Source: a virus. From it: DNA of 22,485 nucleotides. The stretch spans positions 11,930 to 34,414 of the IMG/VR virus record IMGVR_UViG_3300030110_001446; one strand, given 5' to 3'. The notes beneath the pieces are model-generated. The model searched no databases. It saw only the letters and a program-made list of their open reading frames with translations, and had not been told where the DNA came from. Below are positions 1 to 20,343 of the stretch, piece after piece. Made by a program: the position numbers and the translations under genes. The number at the start of each line of letters is the position of its first letter. The first letter of the stretch is position 1.

Positions 1-99
1 TCAAGGTCAGAGGTAAAGCAGGAGATGCACGGAGTGATGGAAGCATTACACAGACTAGAAGATAAGTTAGATAGAGTATTAAGTAGAGAGAGCAAATGA
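1..99 (+). CDS. 3' end of a phage protein, C-terminal 32 residues only
   Basis: An open frame enters at base 1 and ends at a TGA (97-99), giving the last 32 residues of a protein. The tail is charged and helical, with LHRLEDKLDRVL giving an i/i+3/i+4 pattern of leucines typical of a short coiled coil. The stop overlaps the next start in an ATGA arrangement, so this gene belongs to the same + strand structural operon. Nothing in the fragment names a function. Its place just before the internal virion protein genes makes a virion or assembly role likely, but that is inference. Confidence 0.6.
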   Translation, partial: SRSEVKQEMHGVMEALHRLEDKLDRVLSRESK

Positions 100-2102
100 A
101 TACATTTCAAGGATTTAAACCTTCAGGCATGGAAAAGATAGCCAATGCTATGGGGTTTCAAGGTAATATAAAAGACTTTCAAAAGTTTTTACAAGACAAT
201 CCTGATAGACAGACAGAGATGATGCGTTATCAAGACATGGCACGTAAGATGGTAGAAGGTGGTTATGTAAAGAAGATGAGTAGAGGTGGAGATATGTTAA
301 GTGTTTCTCCTGATCCGTTAAAACCAAAAACTACCATCACAGGTATAACAGCTAAACGAGTTACAGATCCTAAGTTACCCAAAGGTGCTGTTGTAAATCC
401 CTATGGTATACCTACATCTCCAGATCAAGACATAGATCCCAGTGCATCTAAGCTAGGCACTACACCTACAGGCACTGCTACAGATGCAGGATCTGCTTCC
501 ACAGCTACTGCCTTTAATCCTAATCCAACCTTTAGTTTTTTTGGTCCACAGGATATGAGAAGGCAGGATTCATCAGATCCAAGAAGCATGGTGGCATCCT
601 CTCCATTTCTTATTTCGAATGAAGCTCAAGCAAGAACCTATGATGCAGATCAAAAGGCTACACAAGTAGACAGTGTAAACAAAGCACTAGAAGCTGCCCA
701 AACAAATCCAGATGATGTAAGAGCAAAGGTAAATGCACAATCTGCTACTGAATCTTTAGTCGGTGGCAAAGAAGCTGCTCAAGGTAACGCACATCTAATA
801 AACAGTCCTGCAAGAAGAGAGCTTGAAGCAGGTGAGATTGTAGACCCTGTAGCTAATGCTGAGAAAGCATCTAAGTTTACAGAAGAAGTACAGGCAGCCA
901 CTGCTACACCATCAGAGAAAGCCACTGTACAAGGACAGTTAGCTACGCTTACAGCAGACTTTGATGCAACTGACCCACCTGCGTGGGCTGCAGGTGCTTT
1001 AAGAGGTGTGCAAGCACAGATGCAAGCCAGAGGTATGGGAGCATCTAGTATAGCAGGACAGGCTATGGTTCAGGCAGCCCTAGAGTCTGCTCTACCTATT
1101 GCATCAGCCGATGCACAAACTCAAGCATCTTTTGAAGCACAGAACTTATCTAACAGACAGCAACGTGCCATGCTTGCTGCCCAACAACGTGCTACATTTA
1201 TGGGCATGGAGTTTGATCAAGGGTTTCAAGCCAAAGTTATGAATGCATCTAAGGTTAGTGACATAGCTAATATGAACTTTAATGCAGAGCAACAAGTCAT
1301 ACTAGAGAACAGCAGAGCCGTAAATACTATGAATCTTGCTAATCTAAGCAATAGACAAGCTCTAGTGATGTCAGAAGCAAGTTCACTGGCTAACTTGGAC
1401 ATGGCTAATCTAAGTAACAGACAGCAAGCACAGGTTATGAATGCACAAAGCTTCTTGCAAATGGATATGGCTAACTTATCTAATAAACAGCAGACAGAGT
1501 TATTCAAAGCTCAGTCAATGCAGACTGCTCTGTTCAATGACCAAGCTGCAGAAAATGCATCAAGACAGTTTAATGCAACAAGTCAGAATCAAGTAGATCA
1601 GTTCTTTGCAAATCTAAAAACTCAAACATCTCAGTTCAATGCTGCCCAACAAAATGCTCACAAGCAATTTAATGCAGGTGAAGCAAATGCAATGGAAAAG
1701 TTTAACAAGGAGATGCAGAATCAGCGTGACCAGTTTAATTCAAAGAACAGACTCATCATAGATCAGAATAATGCACAGTGGAGAAGAGAGATAGCTACTG
1801 CTGATACTACAGCCATAAACAGAGCTAATGAACTCAATGCTACTGCATTACTCAATATGTCAAATAGTTCGTACAATAACTTGTGGAATTACTATAATGA
1901 TGTAATGGAAATGTCATGGGAAAGTTCTGAGAATGAAAGACAAAGAATTGTGCAGATGGCAATAGCACAGTTACAGTCTGAAACATCTAAGGAGTTAACA
2001 GAGATGAAAGCAGATTATGATAGTGCAGTAGGTTTTGGCAGTCTGATAGGAACATTCCTTACTGCAGGAACAGATAGTATATTAGGGAGCTTTTTTAAAT
2101 GA
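96..2102 (+). CDS. Virion structural protein with hendecad repeats (probable internal/ejected protein)
   Basis: A 668-residue protein with no enzymatic motif that I recognise. Residues 1-65 contain a GGYVKKMSRGG segment of a kind I associate with marine phage structural proteins. Residues 75-330 are low-complexity, rich in Ala, Thr, Ser and Pro. Residues 350-569 form a regular array: six 22-residue units, four of them opening with NLSN(R/K)Q, then about eight 11-residue units that mostly begin with N and end in F. Eleven and 22 residues are one and two hendecads, the signature of a right-handed coiled-coil helix. The C-terminus is hydrophobic (GFGSLIGTFLTAG...). The start follows an AG-rich site (AGAGAGAGC) and overlaps the preceding stop. 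Its position before a gp16-sized protein suggests a component of the ejected internal core; a tail or fibre role is possible. Confidence 0.7.
   Translation: MNTFQGFKPSGMEKIANAMGFQGNIKDFQKFLQDNPDRQTEMMRYQDMARKMVEGGYVKKMSRGGDMLSVSPDPLKPKTTITGITAKRVTDPKLPKGAVVNPYGIPTSPDQDIDPSASKLGTTPTGTATDAGSASTATAFNPNPTFSFFGPQDMRRQDSSDPRSMVASSPFLISNEAQARTYDADQKATQVDSVNKALEAAQTNPDDVRAKVNAQSATESLVGGKEAAQGNAHLINSPARRELEAGEIVDPVANAEKASKFTEEVQAATATPSEKATVQGQLATLTADFDATDPPAWAAGALRGVQAQMQARGMGASSIAGQAMVQAALESALPIASADAQTQASFEAQNLSNRQQRAMLAAQQRATFMGMEFDQGFQAKVMNASKVSDIANMNFNAEQQVILENSRAVNTMNLANLSNRQALVMSEASSLANLDMANLSNRQQAQVMNAQSFLQMDMANLSNKQQTELFKAQSMQTALFNDQAAENASRQFNATSQNQVDQFFANLKTQTSQFNAAQQNAHKQFNAGEANAMEKFNKEMQNQRDQFNSKNRLIIDQNNAQWRREIATADTTAINRANELNATALLNMSNSSYNNLWNYYNDVMEMSWESSENERQRIVQMAIAQLQSETSKELTEMKADYDSAVGFGSLIGTFLTAGTDSILGSFFK
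1143..1802 (+). repeat. Tandem 22- and 11-residue coding repeats in the 668-residue virion protein
   Basis: Read in frame, residues 350, 372, 394, 416, 438 and 460 start six consecutive 22-residue units. Units 1, 4, 5 and 6 open with NLSNRQQ or close variants; units 2 and 3 are degenerate. From residue 482 the period becomes 11: successive units end in RQF, DQF, SQF, KQF, EKF and DQF, and most begin with NA or N. The DNA copies have diverged at synonymous and non-synonymous sites, so the array is old and held by protein structure rather than by recent slippage. Confidence 0.8.
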
Positions 2103-2323
2103 GTAGATACAGCCCAACAAACCCTGCCGTAGATGCTTGCTTAAATTTAGAAGCAATAATCAATAGGCAAAAACCTATAGAGCTAGAATCAAAATCTACT
2201 AAAGGATTTTTTAAAAAACAAACACCAACTCCATCTGAAGCAAAAGAGGATGTAATGGATAGAGTAGCTTCCTATGTGAAGGCAATTAGAGTAATAAGAG
2301 AGAAGTATAAAAAAGATGGCTGA
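2099..2323 (+). CDS. Small hypothetical protein in the structural operon
   Basis: A 74-residue protein with a basic, helical C-terminus (ASYVKAIRVIREKYKKDG). I do not recognise the family. No membrane segment or cysteine cluster is visible. Its ATG lies in an ATGA overlap with the stop of the 668-residue gene, and its own stop overlaps the next gene by 8 bases, so it is firmly embedded in the operon and probably translated by coupling. A small virion or chaperone-like role is possible from context only. Confidence 0.65.
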   Translation: MSRYSPTNPAVDACLNLEAIINRQKPIELESKSTKGFFKKQTPTPSEAKEDVMDRVASYVKAIRVIREKYKKDG

Positions 2324-2828
2324 TGATAGACAAATACCAATGGATTCACCTATTCCCGGAATGGGGATGACTGCACCTGTAGGTGGTAGACCTTGGCAAC
2401 AACCACCACAAATGGCTACAGTAGAAGAAGCTATGGAATATTATATAGCAAAACTTGAAGATCCAGACTTTGCACCAGAATTATTAACAGTTATAGAACT
2501 AGGTGTGCCACTGACAACTCTTTCTAATACTATGCAACTAGCATCTGTTATGGAGGGTAAACACAGCATTGATGTGGGTATGCTTGTAATACCCATACTG
2601 GTAGAACTTATGTCAAACATGGCTGAAGCTAACCAAATACCATTTAAAAGTGGTATGGAGAGAGAAGATCAAGGTATCAGTCCTGCTACCATAGCTCTTG
2701 CTAGAAAGAAAGGCAGACTAAAATCAATGCAACAGCAGGATGACACTCCACCACCTGCACAACCAGAGCAGACAGAGCAACCAACAGAACAATCACCTAT
2801 GGGTTTGATGGCAAGAAGGGAACAATAG
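2316..2828 (+). CDS. Conserved marine-phage protein of unknown function
   Basis: A 170-residue protein. The N-terminus is Pro/Gly/Met-rich (PIPGMGMTAP, then GRPWQQPPQ). Next comes a helical core with VEEAMEYYIAKL, LGVPLTTLSNTMQLASVMEGKHSIDVGM and a hydrophobic stretch, LVIPILVELM. The tail (about 140-165) is Gln/Pro-rich and probably disordered. The pattern of a Pro-rich opening, a PW..PP segment and a VMEG.HSIDV motif resembles a family I associate with marine phages, always hypothetical; this is from memory, not a search. It overlaps the 74-residue gene by 8 bases and ends one base before the next ATG. A structural or assembly role is inferred from context. Confidence 0.65.
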   Translation: MADDRQIPMDSPIPGMGMTAPVGGRPWQQPPQMATVEEAMEYYIAKLEDPDFAPELLTVIELGVPLTTLSNTMQLASVMEGKHSIDVGMLVIPILVELMSNMAEANQIPFKSGMEREDQGISPATIALARKKGRLKSMQQQDDTPPPAQPEQTEQPTEQSPMGLMARREQ

Positions 2829-2829
2829 T

Positions 2830-4044
2830 ATGAGTCTACCAAGATTTTTAGGATTAGGTGCGAAAGGAATGGCTACCAGTTTTCAAGCAGCTTTAGATAG
2901 AGAAGAAAAAGGAAAAGACAGAGCATCTAGGGAAGCTTCAGCCGCAGCTAATAGAGCGCATGATTTAGATTTATTGTATACTAGAAGAAGAAATGAAAAA
3001 CTAGATGGATTAGTTGCAGTAGAAGAAGCATTAAGAGCTTTAAATCTTGATGAGAATGTTATTGCTGCAAATCTTGCAGGTGGTCTGCCCGGAGCAGAGA
3101 GATTAAAAGCACTACACGGCATAGCATTAGAAAATGATATAGATTTTAATTCATCAATAACAGCTACACTAGGCGATAACTTTAATATGGATGAGTTAGA
3201 GGGGGGTGCTGTAAATTATGTGAGAAGCAATTTATTAGATGCACGAGTAGATGGCAAGATATACAAAAATCCATATAAGATACAAATATCAGATGAGTTA
3301 AAAGCGTTTGAAGCCATAGGAGATCCTAGAGGTTTTAAGAAACAGATAGAATCTGCACAAATGAAAGTGTTTAAATTACAACAACTTGCAGATCAAACCA
3401 CAGATCCTATTAAGAAGAATCAATATAAGACCACTATAGAAAAGCAGAACAAGTTTGTTGATAAATTAACAGATAAATATCTAGAGCTAGAGAATGAAGG
3501 GTCTGCAGGATTTGATAGCACTGTAAACTCTTTGGCACTCCGTCTTGTAAACAACACAAAGAAGCAAAGATTTGGTGGGCTTGTTACAGAGGACAGTTTG
3601 GGCAACTTAAAAGTAAAGCTAGAGGGCAATCATGGAAGAGCTTTTGAGTCCTACCTTTCTACTTTTGAGTCTCTAAAGAATCTTAGATTTGATTATAGCC
3701 CAAGCAATCCAAATGCAACAGTGAGTAAACCTATGTATAATGCTCTTACTACTTTTGGTAGAAGTGTAGTAAAAGAAGAGTATGAAAATGAAACAGCAAA
3801 CTATTTAAGATCAAAAAAACAAGGTGATCAAATTGTGGGTAATCAGAGAAAGGCTGTAATTAATATTTCAGGTATGACAAAGGCAAATATACAACAAGCA
3901 GTAAAACGAGGAGATGTTGTTAAAAATAATGCAGGACAGTATAAAATATTTAGAGGATTTGGAGAGCCAAATCAGAGTAATCCTGCAGGAGTAGTATTTT
4001 TTCCTGAAACACTAGCACAATTAGAATTATACACGGATAACTAA
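2830..4044 (+). CDS. Probable internal virion protein, 404 residues
   Basis: A 404-residue protein of mainly helical, charged composition. The N-terminus (MSLPRFLGLGAKGMATSFQ) is followed by a strongly charged helix (about 25-60, rich in Arg, Glu and Ala) and another Lys-rich helical region (about 175-215). No catalytic motif or membrane segment is evident. It sits one base after the upstream stop and its TAA shares its last A with the ATG of the 1368-residue gene (TAATG), which implies coupled synthesis. Size and position between two large probable ejection proteins suggest an internal core or injected protein comparable in role to those of T7-like phages. There is no direct sequence evidence for a function. 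Confidence 0.6.
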   Translation: MSLPRFLGLGAKGMATSFQAALDREEKGKDRASREASAAANRAHDLDLLYTRRRNEKLDGLVAVEEALRALNLDENVIAANLAGGLPGAERLKALHGIALENDIDFNSSITATLGDNFNMDELEGGAVNYVRSNLLDARVDGKIYKNPYKIQISDELKAFEAIGDPRGFKKQIESAQMKVFKLQQLADQTTDPIKKNQYKTTIEKQNKFVDKLTDKYLELENEGSAGFDSTVNSLALRLVNNTKKQRFGGLVTEDSLGNLKVKLEGNHGRAFESYLSTFESLKNLRFDYSPSNPNATVSKPMYNALTTFGRSVVKEEYENETANYLRSKKQGDQIVGNQRKAVINISGMTKANIQQAVKRGDVVKNNAGQYKIFRGFGEPNQSNPAGVVFFPETLAQLELYTDN

Positions 4045-7000
4045 TGAACCCACTAACTACGACACCAGAAGATGATGCATTTTTTGAGGGGGTCAGTAGC
4101 CCTAATATAAATACGTCTACTCCTGCTCCTACATTTAAGGGAATGCAATCATCAGAAGAAGATGACGCATTCTTTACTGAGTCACCTCCTGTTGAACGAG
4201 AAGACAGTATGGGTGACAATGCTAATATTCCCCCAACCAAAACTACAGAAGAACAAAAAACAGAGACTGCTCCTGAAGGAGAGGAGTGGGGCTTTGGTAA
4301 TTATGTACAAGATATAACAAAGGGTGCAATAAGAGGTGTACCTAGTGCCATAGCTGAATTTACACAGTTTGTTGGGGATATAGATGAAGCATCAAAAAAG
4401 TATTTAGGCACATTAAACTTTGAAGATAAAGGTAAAAAAGGTTTTGATGTCTCAGATTTATTTCAGATACCAGACTACATATCAGGTGATGAATATGTAA
4501 AATTAAAACAGCAGTATGGTGATGAAATAAAGAACGGAAATTTACTATACAAAATATCTAACGAGATTGAGCAAGGTAGAGACAAATTTGTTACAGGTAT
4601 AGGAAAGGTTACAGGCTTAGAAGAGTTTCAAACACCTGAAGCTGAGTCTGTTGTAGGATTGATAGCAGAGGGTACAACACAGTTTGCTACAGGTTGGGGT
4701 GTTGTAGGCAAATTAACTAAACTAGGTAACTATGGTTACAAGAATTTGTTTCTAAGAGAAGCCATAGTGGGTGCGGCATTCTTTGATCCTGAAGATTCTC
4801 TGATAACAAACTTTGTAAGTCCTGCAATGAAATCTTATTTTAGTGAGATGTCAGAGGAAGAGCTTGAAGAGTGGATGGCACAAGAGAAAGAAAAAGCAAA
4901 AGATAACGTGTGGGTAGAAAGAGGTAAGTTAGCTGTAGAAGGTGGAATTTTTGGTGTAGGATTTCAGGCTACAGGTAATGCAGTCACTAAAGTATTTGAT
5001 GCCATAAGAGGTAAAAAGATTGCAATAGAAGATGCAAAGCTAGAGCAGAAAAAAGAAGGTAAAGTCTCTGATGAGACTATGGAACGTATAGATGCCAAAG
5101 GTAAAATTATTGCAGAGAATGCAGAAGAAGCAGAGGAGATACTAGCAAAGGCAAAACCAAGTAAAGATACAATCAAAAAGGGCAAGAAGATTAGTGACAA
5201 TGTCCAAAAGATAAAAGCAAAGACAGAAGAGGTAAAGCAAAAGAAAGTACAGGCTAATAAAGAGGTTGTTAAATCAGAAAAAAAAATACACAATGAGTTA
5301 GTAGAAGAGTTTGAGGATAATCTTGGTATAAACAGAGACTTTATACGAGGAGAGACTGGTTATATAACTATAAGTACAGTCAAGGGTGGCAAGAGAATGT
5401 TAGACCCAACGAAACTAGAAGCTGCAAAGAATCTAGCTGTACGTAAGATAGAAGAAGCTGATATAGCAACTAATAAATTACAAACTCAACAAGATCCTAG
5501 GATGCCACAGAGTATATACATAGAGAAGGGCATTGAAGATCAGTATGATATGAACGAATTGTTTGACAGAGTACTAAAAGTTGAGAACATTGAAGCTCTG
5601 ACAGTCGTAGCCAAAGAACTAAGAGATGCAGATCCAGATGGATGGAACAAATTAAAAAGCCAAACATATTTAGATAAGGAAACAGGTGTTAAGAAAAAAA
5701 GACAGGTGCAAAGATCTGTTATGGAAAAAATATTTGATTCTGTAGTAAGCAAAAGACTAACATTACGTGATGATCATCCATTATTTGATGCATTAGACAA
5801 AGCAGGTATGTCATTTGAAGACTTCACTCTGATGCATCTAGGCTCTGCAAGTCAGGCAGGTAAGATACTAAATAAGTATTCTCAGTTAGCTAGAAAGGTA
5901 AAGCCAAAGAGCCTGAAGCAACAAGAAGAACTTGATGAGATGCTCAAGAATCAAAGCAGAACTGCTCAGTGGTTTAGAAGGGTGGAGAATGTTAGACGTG
6001 GTCTTCTTGTATCTCAGATAGCAACTGCTGCCAGAAACTTAGAGTCAGGTTTAATACGTGTGCCAGTAGAAGCATTAAATAATATTATTGAAACAGCAAC
6101 GTCAGACATAGCTAGTGGTCAGTTCTTTACTGGTAAAAATAGATTATTAAAAAGAGCTACTTGGACAGACAGCTTTGCAGGTATGCGATATATCTACTCT
6201 GATAGAAAGACTGCTAAAGAATTTACTGATATACTTCTTGGTGATCCTAACAATCCTGATCTTGTAGCCCATCCGAAGTTAGAAGAGTTTTCTAACATGA
6301 TGTTTCAGACAATCAACGAGATTCAGTTAGCTACTGGTAGAGGGAGTAATACCACCTTTGATAAAATTATGACAAAGGCAGAGGATTTTACACAGTTACT
6401 TAACACACCAAACCGTTGGCAGGATTTTATGCTAAGACGTGGTATGTTTATGGGTGAAGCACAGCGTCTGTTTAGAGATAAGTGGGGCATAGATCTTATA
6501 GAGCAACTAGAGAATGGTAGATTAGAAGATTTATTAAATGATGCCAGAGATCTGAATCCTACATTTAAGGTGGGAGAAGATGGCAAACAAAAGCTAGGTA
6601 TAACAGCCGTAGAGATATTTGCAGAAGCTACAGAAAGAGCTATGGATCTTACCTATGCCAACCCACCAGAGTCCCCATTTGGTAAAACATTTGCTAATTT
6701 TATAACAAATTACAACTTAACAGTTCTAGTACCCTTCCCAAGGTTCATGGCAAAGAGTATGGAGCTTATGGCTGAGAACTCTGTAGGAGCATTGTTACCT
6801 GTGGTTAGAAGAATATCTGGGCATGCAGGATATGGGGCAAAAACTTTTGGAGATAAGCTAACTCAGAGAGAGCATCGCATGATAGCACGTAATACTACAG
6901 GCGCTTTAGGCATAATGGCTGCCATGCAGATGTTACAAGAAACTGATCAACAGGGAGAGGATTATAAACTTGTGCCTGTCGGTGATGGTACAGTGCTAGA

Positions 7001-8150
7001 TGTTACACCTTTGTTTCCTCTCAGGCAGTTCTTCTTTTTAGGAAAAATAGCCAATGAATATTTTAGAGCATCAGAGCAAACAGATTGGCTGTCAGGTGGT
7101 AAAGAAGCATTCTTTCAGACATTCGATGCAAGAGAGTGGGCTGAGACATTCTTAGGTACGAGCTTTAGAACAGGTGTAGCAGGTAATCTAGTAGATGAAG
7201 CTGCATCTTTGTTTAATAACCAAGACTTGACCAACGATGAATGGTTAGCAAAGAATGTAGGTCAGGTATTAGGGGATTACCTATCCACATTTGCTGTGCC
7301 TATGAATCAGGTTATAGATCTTCAAAGAGGATTGGGTGCTAGAGGACTTGCGTACAAAGAGACAGGCAAAGATCCTGAGATTGTAAGTGCAGGTGGGGCA
7401 TTTCTTGAAGCAATAAAGAAGCCATTCAGAAAGTATGACCCAACAGGAATGATTATAGATGAGAGTGCCTTACCTAAAAAAGAAGACCCACTACAGGAAG
7501 AAAGAAGACGTGTTGCTCCACTAGCAAAGGTAGCACTAGGTCTTAACATGTATACTGCTGATAGTGAAGAGGGTAAGAAGCTAAAAGAGCTTGGCTTTGA
7601 TAAGTGGGATGTTAGCAGTAGGTCTAGAATACCAAGTGTAAGAAACTTTGAGAATAAATTAATACGTCAGAATTTACCTGATATTGTAGCACAGGCAGAG
7701 GGCTTAGAGGATATATGGGGTGGAATGTACGATGCAAACAAAGAATCCCTCTCCCAGAGAGGTGGGGGAAAACTGCTAGGCATAGTTGACACAGGTATCA
7801 GCAGAGAAAAATATATAAAAGATGAGGTAAAGAGTTACATTAATGAAATGTTAAACCTGTTTAGAGATCCTGACAATGCTGCCGTAGCCATAGATGATCC
7901 TCAAAAAGTTGCAGAGGTGACAGCTATGACAGGGTACAGAAGGTTGCCTACAGATCTTAGGAACAAGGGGTGGAAAAGATTTATAGAGATAGAAAAAAGA
8001 TCGCCTTTTGAATTAAGTCCTGAGTATATACAAAGTCAGTATCCTGAATTTGATGAGCTATCAGATGAAATGAAACAAAAGGCGATAAAGGGGCTAAAGC
8101 TTAGAGACTTATTAGCAATAGCTGAACTAGGGAAGGCTTCGGCTAACTAA
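4044..8150 (+). CDS. Giant internal virion protein (T7 gp16-sized, candidate DNA-ejection protein)
   Basis: A 1368-residue protein, close to the size of T7 gp16. The N-terminal 60 residues are acidic and low-complexity and hold two copies of EDDAFF (residues 9-14 and 39-44). Amphipathic or hydrophobic segments follow (about 70-90, 215-255 and 292-315), the kind expected in proteins that must cross or line a membrane. Residues about 315-425 form a Lys/Glu-rich coiled coil. The remainder is helical, with another hydrophobic patch near 950 (TGALGIMAAMQML). I see no lytic transglycosylase motif, unlike T7 gp16. It is the last gene of the + strand module, with its start coupled by TAATG. The ejection role is inferred from size, order and composition; a tail-associated protein is the alternative. 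Confidence 0.65.
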   Translation: MNPLTTTPEDDAFFEGVSSPNINTSTPAPTFKGMQSSEEDDAFFTESPPVEREDSMGDNANIPPTKTTEEQKTETAPEGEEWGFGNYVQDITKGAIRGVPSAIAEFTQFVGDIDEASKKYLGTLNFEDKGKKGFDVSDLFQIPDYISGDEYVKLKQQYGDEIKNGNLLYKISNEIEQGRDKFVTGIGKVTGLEEFQTPEAESVVGLIAEGTTQFATGWGVVGKLTKLGNYGYKNLFLREAIVGAAFFDPEDSLITNFVSPAMKSYFSEMSEEELEEWMAQEKEKAKDNVWVERGKLAVEGGIFGVGFQATGNAVTKVFDAIRGKKIAIEDAKLEQKKEGKVSDETMERIDAKGKIIAENAEEAEEILAKAKPSKDTIKKGKKISDNVQKIKAKTEEVKQKKVQANKEVVKSEKKIHNELVEEFEDNLGINRDFIRGETGYITISTVKGGKRMLDPTKLEAAKNLAVRKIEEADIATNKLQTQQDPRMPQSIYIEKGIEDQYDMNELFDRVLKVENIEALTVVAKELRDADPDGWNKLKSQTYLDKETGVKKKRQVQRSVMEKIFDSVVSKRLTLRDDHPLFDALDKAGMSFEDFTLMHLGSASQAGKILNKYSQLARKVKPKSLKQQEELDEMLKNQSRTAQWFRRVENVRRGLLVSQIATAARNLESGLIRVPVEALNNIIETATSDIASGQFFTGKNRLLKRATWTDSFAGMRYIYSDRKTAKEFTDILLGDPNNPDLVAHPKLEEFSNMMFQTINEIQLATGRGSNTTFDKIMTKAEDFTQLLNTPNRWQDFMLRRGMFMGEAQRLFRDKWGIDLIEQLENGRLEDLLNDARDLNPTFKVGEDGKQKLGITAVEIFAEATERAMDLTYANPPESPFGKTFANFITNYNLTVLVPFPRFMAKSMELMAENSVGALLPVVRRISGHAGYGAKTFGDKLTQREHRMIARNTTGALGIMAAMQMLQETDQQGEDYKLVPVGDGTVLDVTPLFPLRQFFFLGKIANEYFRASEQTDWLSGGKEAFFQTFDAREWAETFLGTSFRTGVAGNLVDEAASLFNNQDLTNDEWLAKNVGQVLGDYLSTFAVPMNQVIDLQRGLGARGLAYKETGKDPEIVSAGGAFLEAIKKPFRKYDPTGMIIDESALPKKEDPLQEERRRVAPLAKVALGLNMYTADSEEGKKLKELGFDKWDVSSRSRIPSVRNFENKLIRQNLPDIVAQAEGLEDIWGGMYDANKESLSQRGGGKLLGIVDTGISREKYIKDEVKSYINEMLNLFRDPDNAAVAIDDPQKVAEVTAMTGYRRLPTDLRNKGWKRFIEIEKRSPFELSPEYIQSQYPEFDELSDEMKQKAIKGLKLRDLLAIAELGKASAN

Positions 8151-17645: not shown

Positions 17646-18414
17646 TTAATTCATCTCCTATTGCTGTTAGTTTTTCAATGTCGTTAGGGTGTTGGTATTT
17701 AAGATCGTCTTTTAATCTGATCACTCGTACTGTATCCACTACACTTGATAAGTCTTTACACATCTGCAATCCTTTTGGTAGGGCATCAGGATCTAGGGCA
17801 ACTACTATTGTAGAGAACTGTGACAAGTACCTCTTGTGTATGTCTGATAGTGACGTGCCTAACACAGCAACCCCAACATACACGTCACTACCTACAACTA
17901 CGGCACTGACACAATCCTCTACAACTACAGCGATCTTACCATGTCCACGAACATAAGGCAAGCCACTATTCCCATATCTTTTCCACTTAGGTAATTTATT
18001 TTTTAAACTCCTACCTATTGCATCCACTATAATGCCCTCATGCTGTATGGGAAACACAGCACGATTATCCTTTACGTCATGCCACATCTCAAATGTATCT
18101 GCATTTAAGTTGTACCTACTGGCAAACCTACCAAGCTCACTGTTGTTTCTGTTTGGTACAATAAACTCTGGCATAACAAACTGCTCTGCTTTCTTTTCCT
18201 CTTTGTGTATTGTTCTCTTGATATCGTCAATTGAAAGATGCACAGGCTTCGACCCACTGATACTGCACGATACCTTATAACAATTCCACAACAGTCTGCC
18301 CATGTTGTTTGATATAGTAAAGGTCTTGTACCCACCACACTCAGGACAATTCATTCTCTTTGTTTCATTATTTAATATATCTATATCACTTATAATGTTA
18401 TATATATTATGCAT
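17623..18414 (-). CDS. DNA primase, T7 gp4 N-terminal type (zinc finger plus TOPRIM)
   Basis: Makes RNA primers for lagging-strand synthesis. I chose the ATG at 18414 (MHNIYNI), eight bases after AAGGAG; the longer frame to 18450 lies inside the integrase gene. In the 263 residues, C23-x2-C26 and C45-x4-C50 form a template-reading zinc ribbon, a Lys-rich linker follows, and the TOPRIM fold has E166 (VVVED), LGT (185-187) and D208-x-D210 (ALDPDA). The layout is that of the primase half of T7 gp4, here split from the helicase, with the two frames overlapping by 23 bases. Its start overlaps the integrase end by eight bases. Confidence 0.88.
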   Translation of the reverse strand: MHNIYNIISDIDILNNETKRMNCPECGGYKTFTISNNMGRLLWNCYKVSCSISGSKPVHLSIDDIKRTIHKEEKKAEQFVMPEFIVPNRNNSELGRFASRYNLNADTFEMWHDVKDNRAVFPIQHEGIIVDAIGRSLKNKLPKWKRYGNSGLPYVRGHGKIAVVVEDCVSAVVVGSDVYVGVAVLGTSLSDIHKRYLSQFSTIVVALDPDALPKGLQMCKDLSSVVDTVRVIRLKDDLKYQHPNDIEKLTAIGDELNGTSTNT

Positions 18415-19492
18415 TGTATTTACTCCTTGTGTTGAGAGCATTCTTAGCACTCTCGTAAGTATGTTTCATGTACGGCTTGACAGATTGTACATTTGTGTGA
18501 CCTGTCACTGACATAAGTTGCCCCATTGGGACTCCACTGTCAATCATTTCTGTAACTCCTGTCCTTCTGAGATCCATAAGTCTGAGTTCATCAGGCAGGT
18601 TTAAACGCTTCATGACACGCTTTGCAATCTTTGATACACTCTCCAACCCATAGGGCTTGTACTCGCCCTGTATGGGGCTTACATTGGGAGCTACGTACTG
18701 TTGAAAGCCAAAGTCACCCTGTTGTTCGTACAACATATCATACAGGCTATCACTGATAGGCAGAAACACCTTTGATCTACGCTTGGACTGCTCTAGTGTG
18801 AGCATACCTTTGTCCATATCAAGGTCATTCCAAGTGAGCAGTCTCATGTCACCTACTCTCTGACACCATTCGTATGCCATCTGCACTATCAAGCCAATGC
18901 TTCTGTACTCGTAGTTGGCATAAGCATAGTCAAGAAATTGACGCACATGTTCCTTTGCCCACACTACACGTCTAGGTTTGGTAGACTTACGTCTTATGTT
19001 AGAGAAAGGATTGTGATTTCCATACTCCATCTCAGTCGCATAGTTGTAGATTCGTGATGCAATACTGCACACATGGTTTGCAAGTGACACACCACGTCTG
19101 ACCCAGAGTTCATAAGTCCTCTTAGCCAACCTACTAGATATAGTATGCCACTTTTTATCACCTAAACTGTGACAAAGTATCTTAATAAAGTAGATATAAT
19201 CAGCTTTAGTTGAGTCACGTAATGCATTGAAATCATTAGACAAAAGATATATGTCACATAATTCTGACAGTGTAGTAGATCGTGTAACTACAGACTCTGT
19301 CAACATTTCTTGACGATAGTCATCTATCAATTTGTTTAATTCATCTGCAACTTTTTTTGCTTCATTAAAATCTTTACCAAGTTCCTTGCGAGATACAATG
19401 CCACTGTCAATTAATTGACGAGGGGGACTGAACCTGAATGTCCGATCCCCCTTGGGTGTGTACCTCTTGTACATGTAGCGAGGTAGATTCAT
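18407..19492 (-). CDS. int: Tyrosine recombinase / phage integrase
   Basis: Site-specific recombinase of 361 residues from the ATG at 19492, which shares its A with the upstream TAA (TAATG). The open frame 42 bases longer is less likely because it lies inside the DUF932 gene. There is a SAM-like N-terminal DNA-binding region (about 70-160), then the catalytic core: R212 (EWCQRVGDMRLLTW), a Lys-rich turn (QSKRRSKVFLPI), R309 in MDLRRTG, H332 in VTGHTN and the nucleophile Y341 in KPYMKHT, nine residues after H332. The usual first His of the HxxR box is Met (M306). No ribosome site is visible, so translation is probably coupled. No intergenic space for an attP lies next to it. Integration, genome-dimer resolution and loss of function all remain possible. 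Confidence 0.85.
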   Translation of the reverse strand: MNLPRYMYKRYTPKGDRTFRFSPPRQLIDSGIVSRKELGKDFNEAKKVADELNKLIDDYRQEMLTESVVTRSTTLSELCDIYLLSNDFNALRDSTKADYIYFIKILCHSLGDKKWHTISSRLAKRTYELWVRRGVSLANHVCSIASRIYNYATEMEYGNHNPFSNIRRKSTKPRRVVWAKEHVRQFLDYAYANYEYRSIGLIVQMAYEWCQRVGDMRLLTWNDLDMDKGMLTLEQSKRRSKVFLPISDSLYDMLYEQQGDFGFQQYVAPNVSPIQGEYKPYGLESVSKIAKRVMKRLNLPDELRLMDLRRTGVTEMIDSGVPMGQLMSVTGHTNVQSVKPYMKHTYESAKNALNTRSKYNA

Positions 19493-20343
19493 TAAGCAGC
19501 AACCAGTTCTTTGAACTGCTTGGACGATACCCACTTGGTAACTTCCTGCTCACGTCCCCACATGCTGATTGAGTTGGTGTCGTTGCCTGTGTCACGTAGC
19601 TTGAAACCATTTCTTTCATCTGCATATGATGCATAGTTAGTGAACGCTGAGTACAAAGCAAAAGCATTACGTCCCCTCTTGCCTATCTCTTGTCCATATA
19701 ATGATAGCATCTTCTCACTTTTCTTCTCAGATCCCATGAGAGAGTTTAGCATTGTTTGAACACTCTGATCATCAAGAGGTGTGTCAGCCCAAGTCTGTAG
19801 CTGTTCAGCCTGTGAATAGAAGTCACTGTTAGCATTCTCTAGCTCCCTGATAAAGGTAGACATACTAAAGTTAGTAGTGTTCTTCCTTCGCACCTTATCA
19901 TGCTCACCTCTGATCATGCCGTTTGTGCAGAAGTAATCTATAGCACCAAAGAATACTTGGTTAGAACACAGACCATCCACACCATGCAGAGCTATCACTC
20001 GTTGTGATATTTCTGTCTGTTGCTTGTCAGTTGTGATCAGTGCCTTAGTGCTAGGCATAGTAGCATCAAGCATAGCAAATGCACCATTACGTGCAGTGTT
20101 CCATCTAACTTGCACATCTTTCATTGCATCATCTCCTAGCTGTTCAGCCATAGTTCTGCACACCTTATCATAGAACTCTCTATGTGTAACAGAGTTAAAC
20201 TTACTACCAACAATACCTAACACTTCATCAGTGTTATTGTTGATAACATATTTCTTACCTTGCATACGAGTCTTCTCAGTACGTGTAGTGAAGTCCAAGT
20301 CAATTGGTAGTTCTATTATGTTGTTTGTAAAATCTAAAGCCAT
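19492..20343 (-). CDS. DUF932 phage/plasmid protein
   Basis: A 283-residue protein matching the DUF932 layout. An early segment reads NNNTDEVLGIVGSKFNSVTH, a middle ISQRVIALHGVDGLCSNQVF is followed by YFCTNGMIRG, and the C-terminal half is helical. Family members are common on phages and plasmids and often lie near recombination genes, but their biochemical role is not established. This is the first gene of the leftward replication module as seen here. It has a strong AAGGAG site and the larger of the two leader gaps (64 bases) upstream, which suggests a local promoter. The next gene, the integrase, is coupled to it by TAATG. Confidence 0.7.
   Translation of the reverse strand: MALDFTNNIIELPIDLDFTTRTEKTRMQGKKYVINNNTDEVLGIVGSKFNSVTHREFYDKVCRTMAEQLGDDAMKDVQVRWNTARNGAFAMLDATMPSTKALITTDKQQTEISQRVIALHGVDGLCSNQVFFGAIDYFCTNGMIRGEHDKVRRKNTTNFSMSTFIRELENANSDFYSQAEQLQTWADTPLDDQSVQTMLNSLMGSEKKSEKMLSLYGQEIGKRGRNAFALYSAFTNYASYADERNGFKLRDTGNDTNSISMWGREQEVTKWVSSKQFKELVAA

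Follow-up and report, generated by a model that had tools for sequence, protein, structure and literature searches.

A hendecad-repeat protein of HMO-2011-type podoviruses that changes length in 11-residue steps: a candidate ejected rod or conduit component

The window analysed here is a stretch of 22,485 nucleotides from a 42,960-base IMG/VR virus record, whose closest cultured relatives are HMO-2011-type podoviruses. It encodes a 668-residue protein in which an 11-residue (hendecad) repeat keeps its phase over twenty units, and the relatives of this protein differ in array length almost always by whole hendecads. The most likely reading is that the gene is the first of an ejection-protein block in an HMO-2011-type podovirus and that its product is an ejected helical rod or a component of a conduit; the overall odds of this reading are about even (roughly 50%). 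Ejection is favoured because of the gene order and the absence of a tip domain. Gene 25 of Puniceispirillum phage HMO-2011 (phage1322_25) is 54% identical to the hendecad protein across 98%, and the owners of the protein are HMO-2011-type podoviruses, which are very common in the ocean. No relative of the protein itself turned up in Pfam, PHROG or the PDB. Its layout in the window is as follows.

96..2102, plus strand: hendecad protein, 668 aa, HMO-2011 gene-25 (phage1322_25) family, from the open reading frame and identity
96..293, plus strand: N-terminal helical domain, residues 1-66, motif GF.G....F..FL..NP, from invariant positions in 45 relatives
294..974, plus strand: low-complexity A/T/P-rich region, residues 67-293, differing in length among relatives and of low pLDDT
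975..1121, plus strand: N-terminal anchor, residues 294-342 (PAWAAGA...RGMGASSIAGQA...ALPIASADA), conserved in all relatives, HMM anchor
1143..1538, plus strand: array part 1, residues 350-481, twelve hendecads of N-L-S-N-R-Q-Q type, from the layout
1539..1802, plus strand: array part 2, residues 482-569, eight hendecads with F every 11, from the layout and the phase profile
1803..1868, plus strand: two extra in-phase hendecads, residues 570-591, from the layout, the phase profile running beyond W562
1740..1931, plus strand: C-terminal anchor, residues 549-612 (AQWRREIATADT...NNLWNYYNDVMEMSWESSE), overlapping the array end, conserved HMM anchor
2028..2099, plus strand: C-terminal Gly-rich hydrophobic segment, residues 645-668, maximum hydropathy 1.22 at 648-666

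The N-terminal domain is modelled by AlphaFold2 as helices within residues 9-53 at pLDDT 70-80. Outside hendecad genes it is matched in just three ORFs, none of them anchored at both ends, and one of the three (L080) is a truncated hendecad ORF. A C-terminal membrane segment was rejected as a general feature of the family, many relatives having no hydrophobic segment at this end. Unlike the window protein, the HMO-2011 copy (L002 12001-14121) is extended at its C-terminus (CWVAREVYGEGDPRW...). Short runs of unreadable bases, seen as X in the translations, lie upstream of the window at ~11900 and ~7900 of L233, one of them very close to the window's left end.

The original prediction had placed six 22-residue units and about eight 11-residue units in residues 350-569 (1143-1802); the coordinates match exactly and the layout agrees. 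In the first part the twelve hendecads pair as the six longer units, while repeats of the second part are of the N-A-x-x-x-N-x-x-x-Q-F type, with one phenylalanine per 11 residues (F492, 503, 514, 525, 536 and 547). The phase is unbroken over the twenty hendecads and persists for about two more (570-591). Autocorrelation on residues 341-590, compared with 500 shuffles, gave z values of 5.8, 8.8, 4.5 and 6.6 at lags 11, 22, 33 and 44. At lag 7 the autocorrelation is negative, so that the array is hendecad, and a heptad coil was rejected.

The spacing of conserved anchors provides the main evolutionary evidence. Relatives were gathered from IMG/VR and annotated phages, and in 215 ORFs the distance was measured between two anchor-profile positions, P334 (in PIASADA) before the array and W562 (in WRR) after it. 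This spacing equals 8 mod 11 in 214 of the 215; the sole exception (L119, spacing 317) has one additional residue at the C-terminal edge. The regular spacings take 17 values from 151 to 668 residues, corresponding to 13, 14, 15, 16, 20, 21, 27, 28, 30, 32, 33, 38, 40, 48, 50, 58 and 60 hendecads. Roseobacter phage CRP-207, with 19 hendecads by its layout (P314 to W531), brings the array lengths to 18, spanning 13 to 60 hendecads. All 34 representatives left after clustering at 70% identity follow the rule, and the flank lengths (W to stop codon; first Met to P) are scattered across residue classes mod 11. Among about 80 relatives at 47-88% identity there are zero indels in residues 345-600 and many outside. 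Together with the layout and the shuffle-tested autocorrelation, the 8 mod 11 rule bears out the claim of about twenty hendecads without a phase break; chance or low complexity as the cause of the repeat was rejected by the shuffles and this rule, and the repeat is stronger than had originally been claimed.

The phase is also kept within the arrays. A phase profile trained on the other length classes was applied to one held-out representative per regular length, and every three-hendecad window was found in the expected phase, with no slip seen. Proline is absent from the 34 representatives' 912 hendecads (10,032 residues); glycine makes up 1.3% and marks no regular turn, and 68% of the hendecads have Asn at position 1. 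Phase-perfect periodicity of up to 660 residues shows that single-residue length changes are not tolerated whereas whole 11-residue steps are, which is a strong and testable statement. The 22-residue unit was rejected as the length quantum, since odd (13, 15, 19, 21, 27, 33) and even counts both occur.

Long arrays fall on two ladders of length, 28-38-48-58 and 30-40-50-60, each rising by ten hendecads at a time, and arrays of 48-60 hendecads (L228, L225, L229, L230, L211, L212 and L208) show a higher-order repeat of 110 residues, that is, ten hendecads. Tandem duplication is the sole explanation offered for this ten-unit step. Such duplications would also be expected if a 33-base repeat had simply grown neutrally, with no structural constraint, but this explanation is very improbable and already disfavoured. 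On a quick and poorly resolved maximum-likelihood tree of 93 representatives and 137 anchor columns, parsimony gives roughly 22 changes of hendecad number, against a minimum of 16 for 17 states; the 18 classes need at least 17. The chance of a multiple of 11 is 1 in 11 per change, and, with any in-frame length allowed, the chance that all of 16 changes are multiples of 11 is ~1e-17. Moreover, the phase survives in units that have diverged to low sequence identity, and proline is kept out of the arrays.

Two single-chain AlphaFold2 runs were made, one on the full length with 45 relatives and one on residues 290-668 with 43. The models are nearly all helix, with mean pLDDT of 52.6 and 64.4 and pTM of 0.22, and place helices at 319-368, 375-395, 398-457 and 463-586, the last being the longest and unbroken at about 70-80 pLDDT. 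Foldseek with the first, low-confidence full-length model found no match. The long hendecad helix of the original prediction is phase-perfect by sequence and evolution and may be a single continuous helix, with low-confidence breaks modelled at 369-374 and 458-462. These breaks, together with Gly370 and Gly528, almost invariant within the 20-hendecad class, are what could be expected if the array were several helices packed together as hairpins or a solenoid, with no long rod. This arrangement is quite unlikely, considering the composition of the 912 hendecads (no proline, little glycine, no regular turn position) and the phase held in every three-hendecad window of each regular class up to 60 units; a turn would not require the same 11-residue phase on either side. 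AlphaFold2 single-chain models often break long oligomeric helices.

When the array is plotted on an 11/3 helical wheel, the hydrophobic residues of its first part occupy two sides (positions 2 and 10; 8, 11 and 4), with Gln in position 7 and charges in positions 5 and 9, whereas the second part has a single hydrophobic side. The one-sided pattern of the second part in the window protein reaches a permutation p of 0.025, as one of many tests. The two-sided pattern would suit a barrel, but neither pattern is strongly supported: in pooled arrays the wheel harmonics do not differ from permutation (p 0.1-0.4). The sequence therefore gives no oligomer, and an oligomer state taken from the wheel was rejected as not significant.

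Array length was compared with the dimensions that it might follow. At 1.65 nm per hendecad, the family would span 21 to 99 nm if straight (13-60 units). The suggestion that the helix is long enough to cross a Gram-negative periplasm holds as arithmetic (33 nm for 20 hendecads) but not as a general rule, given the range of the family and the arrays found on one host. In strain FZCC0040, the phages CRP-3, CRP-212 and CRP-235 carry 14 units and CRP-207 carries 19; length is thus not set by the host envelope, and a ruler of the host periplasm was rejected. The cultured relatives are short-tailed (PMC6918029, PMC8528129), so the array measures no tail. Finally, the outer head diameter of CRP-1, 9 and 13 is ~70 nm (PMC8528129), and 48-60 hendecads would extend over 79-99 nm. 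Straight storage of such arrays inside the head is unlikely because 99 nm exceeds this diameter and the contigs of the long-array phages are ~54-58 kb long. This mismatch is the best argument for either an external fibre or a bent or folded stored form.

The gene neighbourhood downstream of the hendecad gene consists of the following ORFs.

2099..2323, plus strand: 74-aa ORF, next in the block, with relatives in just 12 near loci
2316..2828, plus strand: 170-aa partner, motif PIPG.SLT...RPW..PP, with relatives in 186 loci
2830..4044, plus strand: 404-aa protein, judged gp15/gp20-like solely from its position and size, from synteny, with no family match
4044..8150, plus strand: 1368-aa protein, judged gp16-like solely from its position and size, with conserved counterparts in HMO-2011 and CRP-1

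The 170-aa partner is conserved across HMO-2011-type, Pelagibacter and rhizobial phages, including HMO-2011, HTVC103P, phiM6 and RHph_N3_19, and has no family or PDB relative. The 404-aa and 1368-aa proteins gave no Pfam, PHROG or PDB match, and profile searches of the neighbours against the PDB returned nothing. The same gene order (hendecad gene, small ORF or ORFs, then proteins of 165-200, 370-930 and 800-1700+ aa) is common to HMO-2011, MQM1, phiM6, CRP-1, CHOED, CRP-3 and RHph_N3_19. In these phages tail genes, including tail-fibre genes, lie upstream, and in most of the records the very large gene is followed by genes on the opposite strand. The Pelagibacter phages HTVC103P and HTVC115P have extra small genes interposed in the block. 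The hendecad gene precedes two large putative internal proteins, so named by position and size alone, and opens what looks like a podovirus ejection-protein block; the blocks of T7, P22 and kuraviruses have a comparable arrangement (PMC8954989). Elsewhere in the window, an ORF on the minus strand (18407-19534) has an end that by eye resembles a tyrosine recombinase (LMDLRRTGVTEMIDSGV...TGHTNVQSVKPYMKHTY), and the phage may accordingly be temperate; CRP-3 has been reported as temperate (PMC6918029).

A further link to ejection proteins comes from one clade of relatives. The cultured phages CRP-3, 212, 235 and 738, all with 14 hendecads, bear a C-terminal Peptidase_S74 domain (PF13884) above the Pfam cut-off, and of the 20 loci in the 14-hendecad class a home-made profile detects S74 in 15, while it detects the domain at no other length. 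The window protein and most relatives have no PF13884 domain. The profiles matched by the S74-bearing relatives, mainly via S74, are phrog_6121, annotated as "virion structural protein", and phrog_4287, annotated as "DNA ejection protein". S74 proteins also fill the gp7 slot in the P22-like Pseudomonas phage AH02 and in H6/1, where in both cases phrog_598 ("DNA ejection") covers the N-terminal parts, and S74 is present in the annotated ejection proteins of kuravirus relatives. Salmonella phage 7-11 gp20, a full-length member of phrog_4287, aligns with SU10_022 at 31.5% over 39% (E 6e-4). In the SU10 study five proteins, gp20-24, belong to the virion but leave it, being absent from the genome-release intermediate (PMC9509320), and gp22 is covered by this range. 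SU10 gp22 is assigned by sequence comparison to a more distant S74 ejection-protein family. The proposed chain from the hendecad family to an experimentally ejected protein would thus pass through S74, a domain also found in tail fibres. Once S74 is removed, the matches to ejection-protein profiles disappear throughout the family, and the window protein itself has none; the link to ejection therefore consists of a mobile domain and gene order. In this sense the original suggestion of an ejected virion protein is favoured by the gene order and by the ejection profiles of the S74 relatives, but those profile matches arise mainly through S74. No virion mass spectrometry for the family was found in the literature on MQM1 or phiM6.

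Some relatives are extended at the N-terminus. CRP-235 (L102 1411-3945) has a LysM domain, a peptidoglycan-binding domain, at residues 71-110 of its extension (E 9e-11). In L085, L038, L039, L048 and L053 about 440-500 extra residues precede the conserved N-terminal domain, and a Pfam scan of the L085 and L048 extensions gave no match. A murein-hydrolase domain was sought in the long extensions and none was found.

Two other placements of the rod have to be weighed against ejection. Known S74 domains include ones that assemble trimeric fibres, and the protein could be a trimeric, alpha-helical fibre or tail needle on the outside of the particle, with a rod outside the head whose length is free to vary; in one clade the C-terminal S74 chaperone would nucleate folding and then be cleaved off. 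Although doubtful, this placement is a serious one: it agrees with the frequency of S74 in the 14-hendecad clade and with the tail-fibre genes upstream, and it allows rods of up to 99 nm that do not have to fit the head. Nevertheless, S74 is also found in annotated ejection proteins (the P22 gp7 slot and kuravirus relatives) and is missing from most hendecad relatives. Among the 17 relatives with long N-terminal extensions, none showed a receptor-binding or beta-rich tip domain, no Pfam domain occurs beyond S74 and one LysM, and the termini are conserved, whereas fibre termini are hypervariable.

Alternatively, the protein might be an internal core or assembly protein, such as a portal-barrel-like scaffold or a head ruler, that is retained in the virion. 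A helical rod whose length is fixed inside a clade, with no indel in about 80 relatives, and a gene adjoining those of putative internal proteins would fit such a function. It is nonetheless unlikely, since the length varies more than fourfold while the genomes of the phages examined are all ~53-68 kb. Between the two roles originally envisaged, scaffold of an ejection tube and rod of a tail spike, the ejection tube is favoured as the likelier.

Resemblances to known systems are of a general kind. Some tape measure proteins carry 11-residue repeats (Belcaid et al. 2011, PMC3271669; TP901-1 TMP, PMC5099701). Like the hendecad family, they repeat an 11-residue helical unit a whole but variable number of times, have aromatic residues every 11 positions, as in F492-F547 of the window protein, and change their rod by duplication and loss; in contrast, their gene determines tail length, whereas the cultured phages of the hendecad family are short-tailed. 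The seven-fold [FW]-x(10) pattern of Belcaid is present in none of the 215 relatives, a six-fold one being found in 86, including the window protein at six, and no Pfam tape-measure domain was detected in the hendecad protein. Another comparison is protein H of phiX174 (PDB 4JPP), a tube carrying DNA across the cell wall in which 18 of 23 inward residues are N, Q or R (PMC7354561). Amide-rich hendecads are common to the window array and to the alpha-helical N/Q/R-rich hendecads of H. The H tube is decameric and has an amide-lined lumen between two hydrophobic seams; part 1 of the window array looks two-seamed, though at a permutation p of 0.1-0.4. However, H is built of 3 hendecads, a kink and 11 heptads, unlike the 13-60 hendecads without heptads described here, and phiX174 is a tailless ssDNA microvirus rather than a short-tailed podovirus. 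Searches of PDB sequences with phmmer and hmmsearch matched neither H nor any other PDB chain; thus, no homology to tape measure proteins or to phiX174 H was detected in the searches made.

The podovirus ejection proteins (P22 gp7/gp20/gp16, T7 gp14/gp15/gp16, SU10 gp20-24) offer a comparable start of the gene block but no detectable homology to the array or the anchors, and the helical array of the hendecad family is far longer than in any of them. With Peptidase_S74 (PF13884) proteins, the likeness is confined to the C-terminal domain of four cultured relatives and is not shared by the window protein. A search of bacterial genomes with CRP-3 as query found no relatives, and weak tblastn matches to Vibrio 489E54-1 and Helicobacter prophage proteins were judged unrelated coil matches. 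Vibrio D279_15 and Escherichia Pondi_83 (L094 6782-7354 and L105 4005-5123) share an RG.G.(S/T)(S/T) motif with a helical coil behind it; their genes are placed much like the hendecad gene, and they are possible distant relatives.

If the protein is ejected, its action may be pictured as follows. Residues 350-591 would fold into an alpha-helical, nearly straight rod of 20-22 hendecads, ~33 nm long if unbroken, and the rods of several copies would pack side by side. These copies would be held in the head near the portal, exit via the short tail before the DNA, and then form or brace a conduit through the cell envelope. A more specific and tentative proposal is that the ejected bundle itself builds the trans-envelope conduit, as a tape-measure-like rod in short-tailed phages, with a length that changes over evolution in increments of 1.65 nm (whole hendecads, often ten at a time) between 21 and 99 nm and is uncoupled from tail length and from the host strain.

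Should ejection hold, the hendecad family would add a third setting to the tape-measure and phiX174 H themes, and its natural length variants would be available for testing the role of rod or conduit length. If it is instead an external fibre, the hendecad protein would represent a new kind of all-helical fibre. The strict 11-residue quantisation bears, in a testable manner, on a straight helical bundle.
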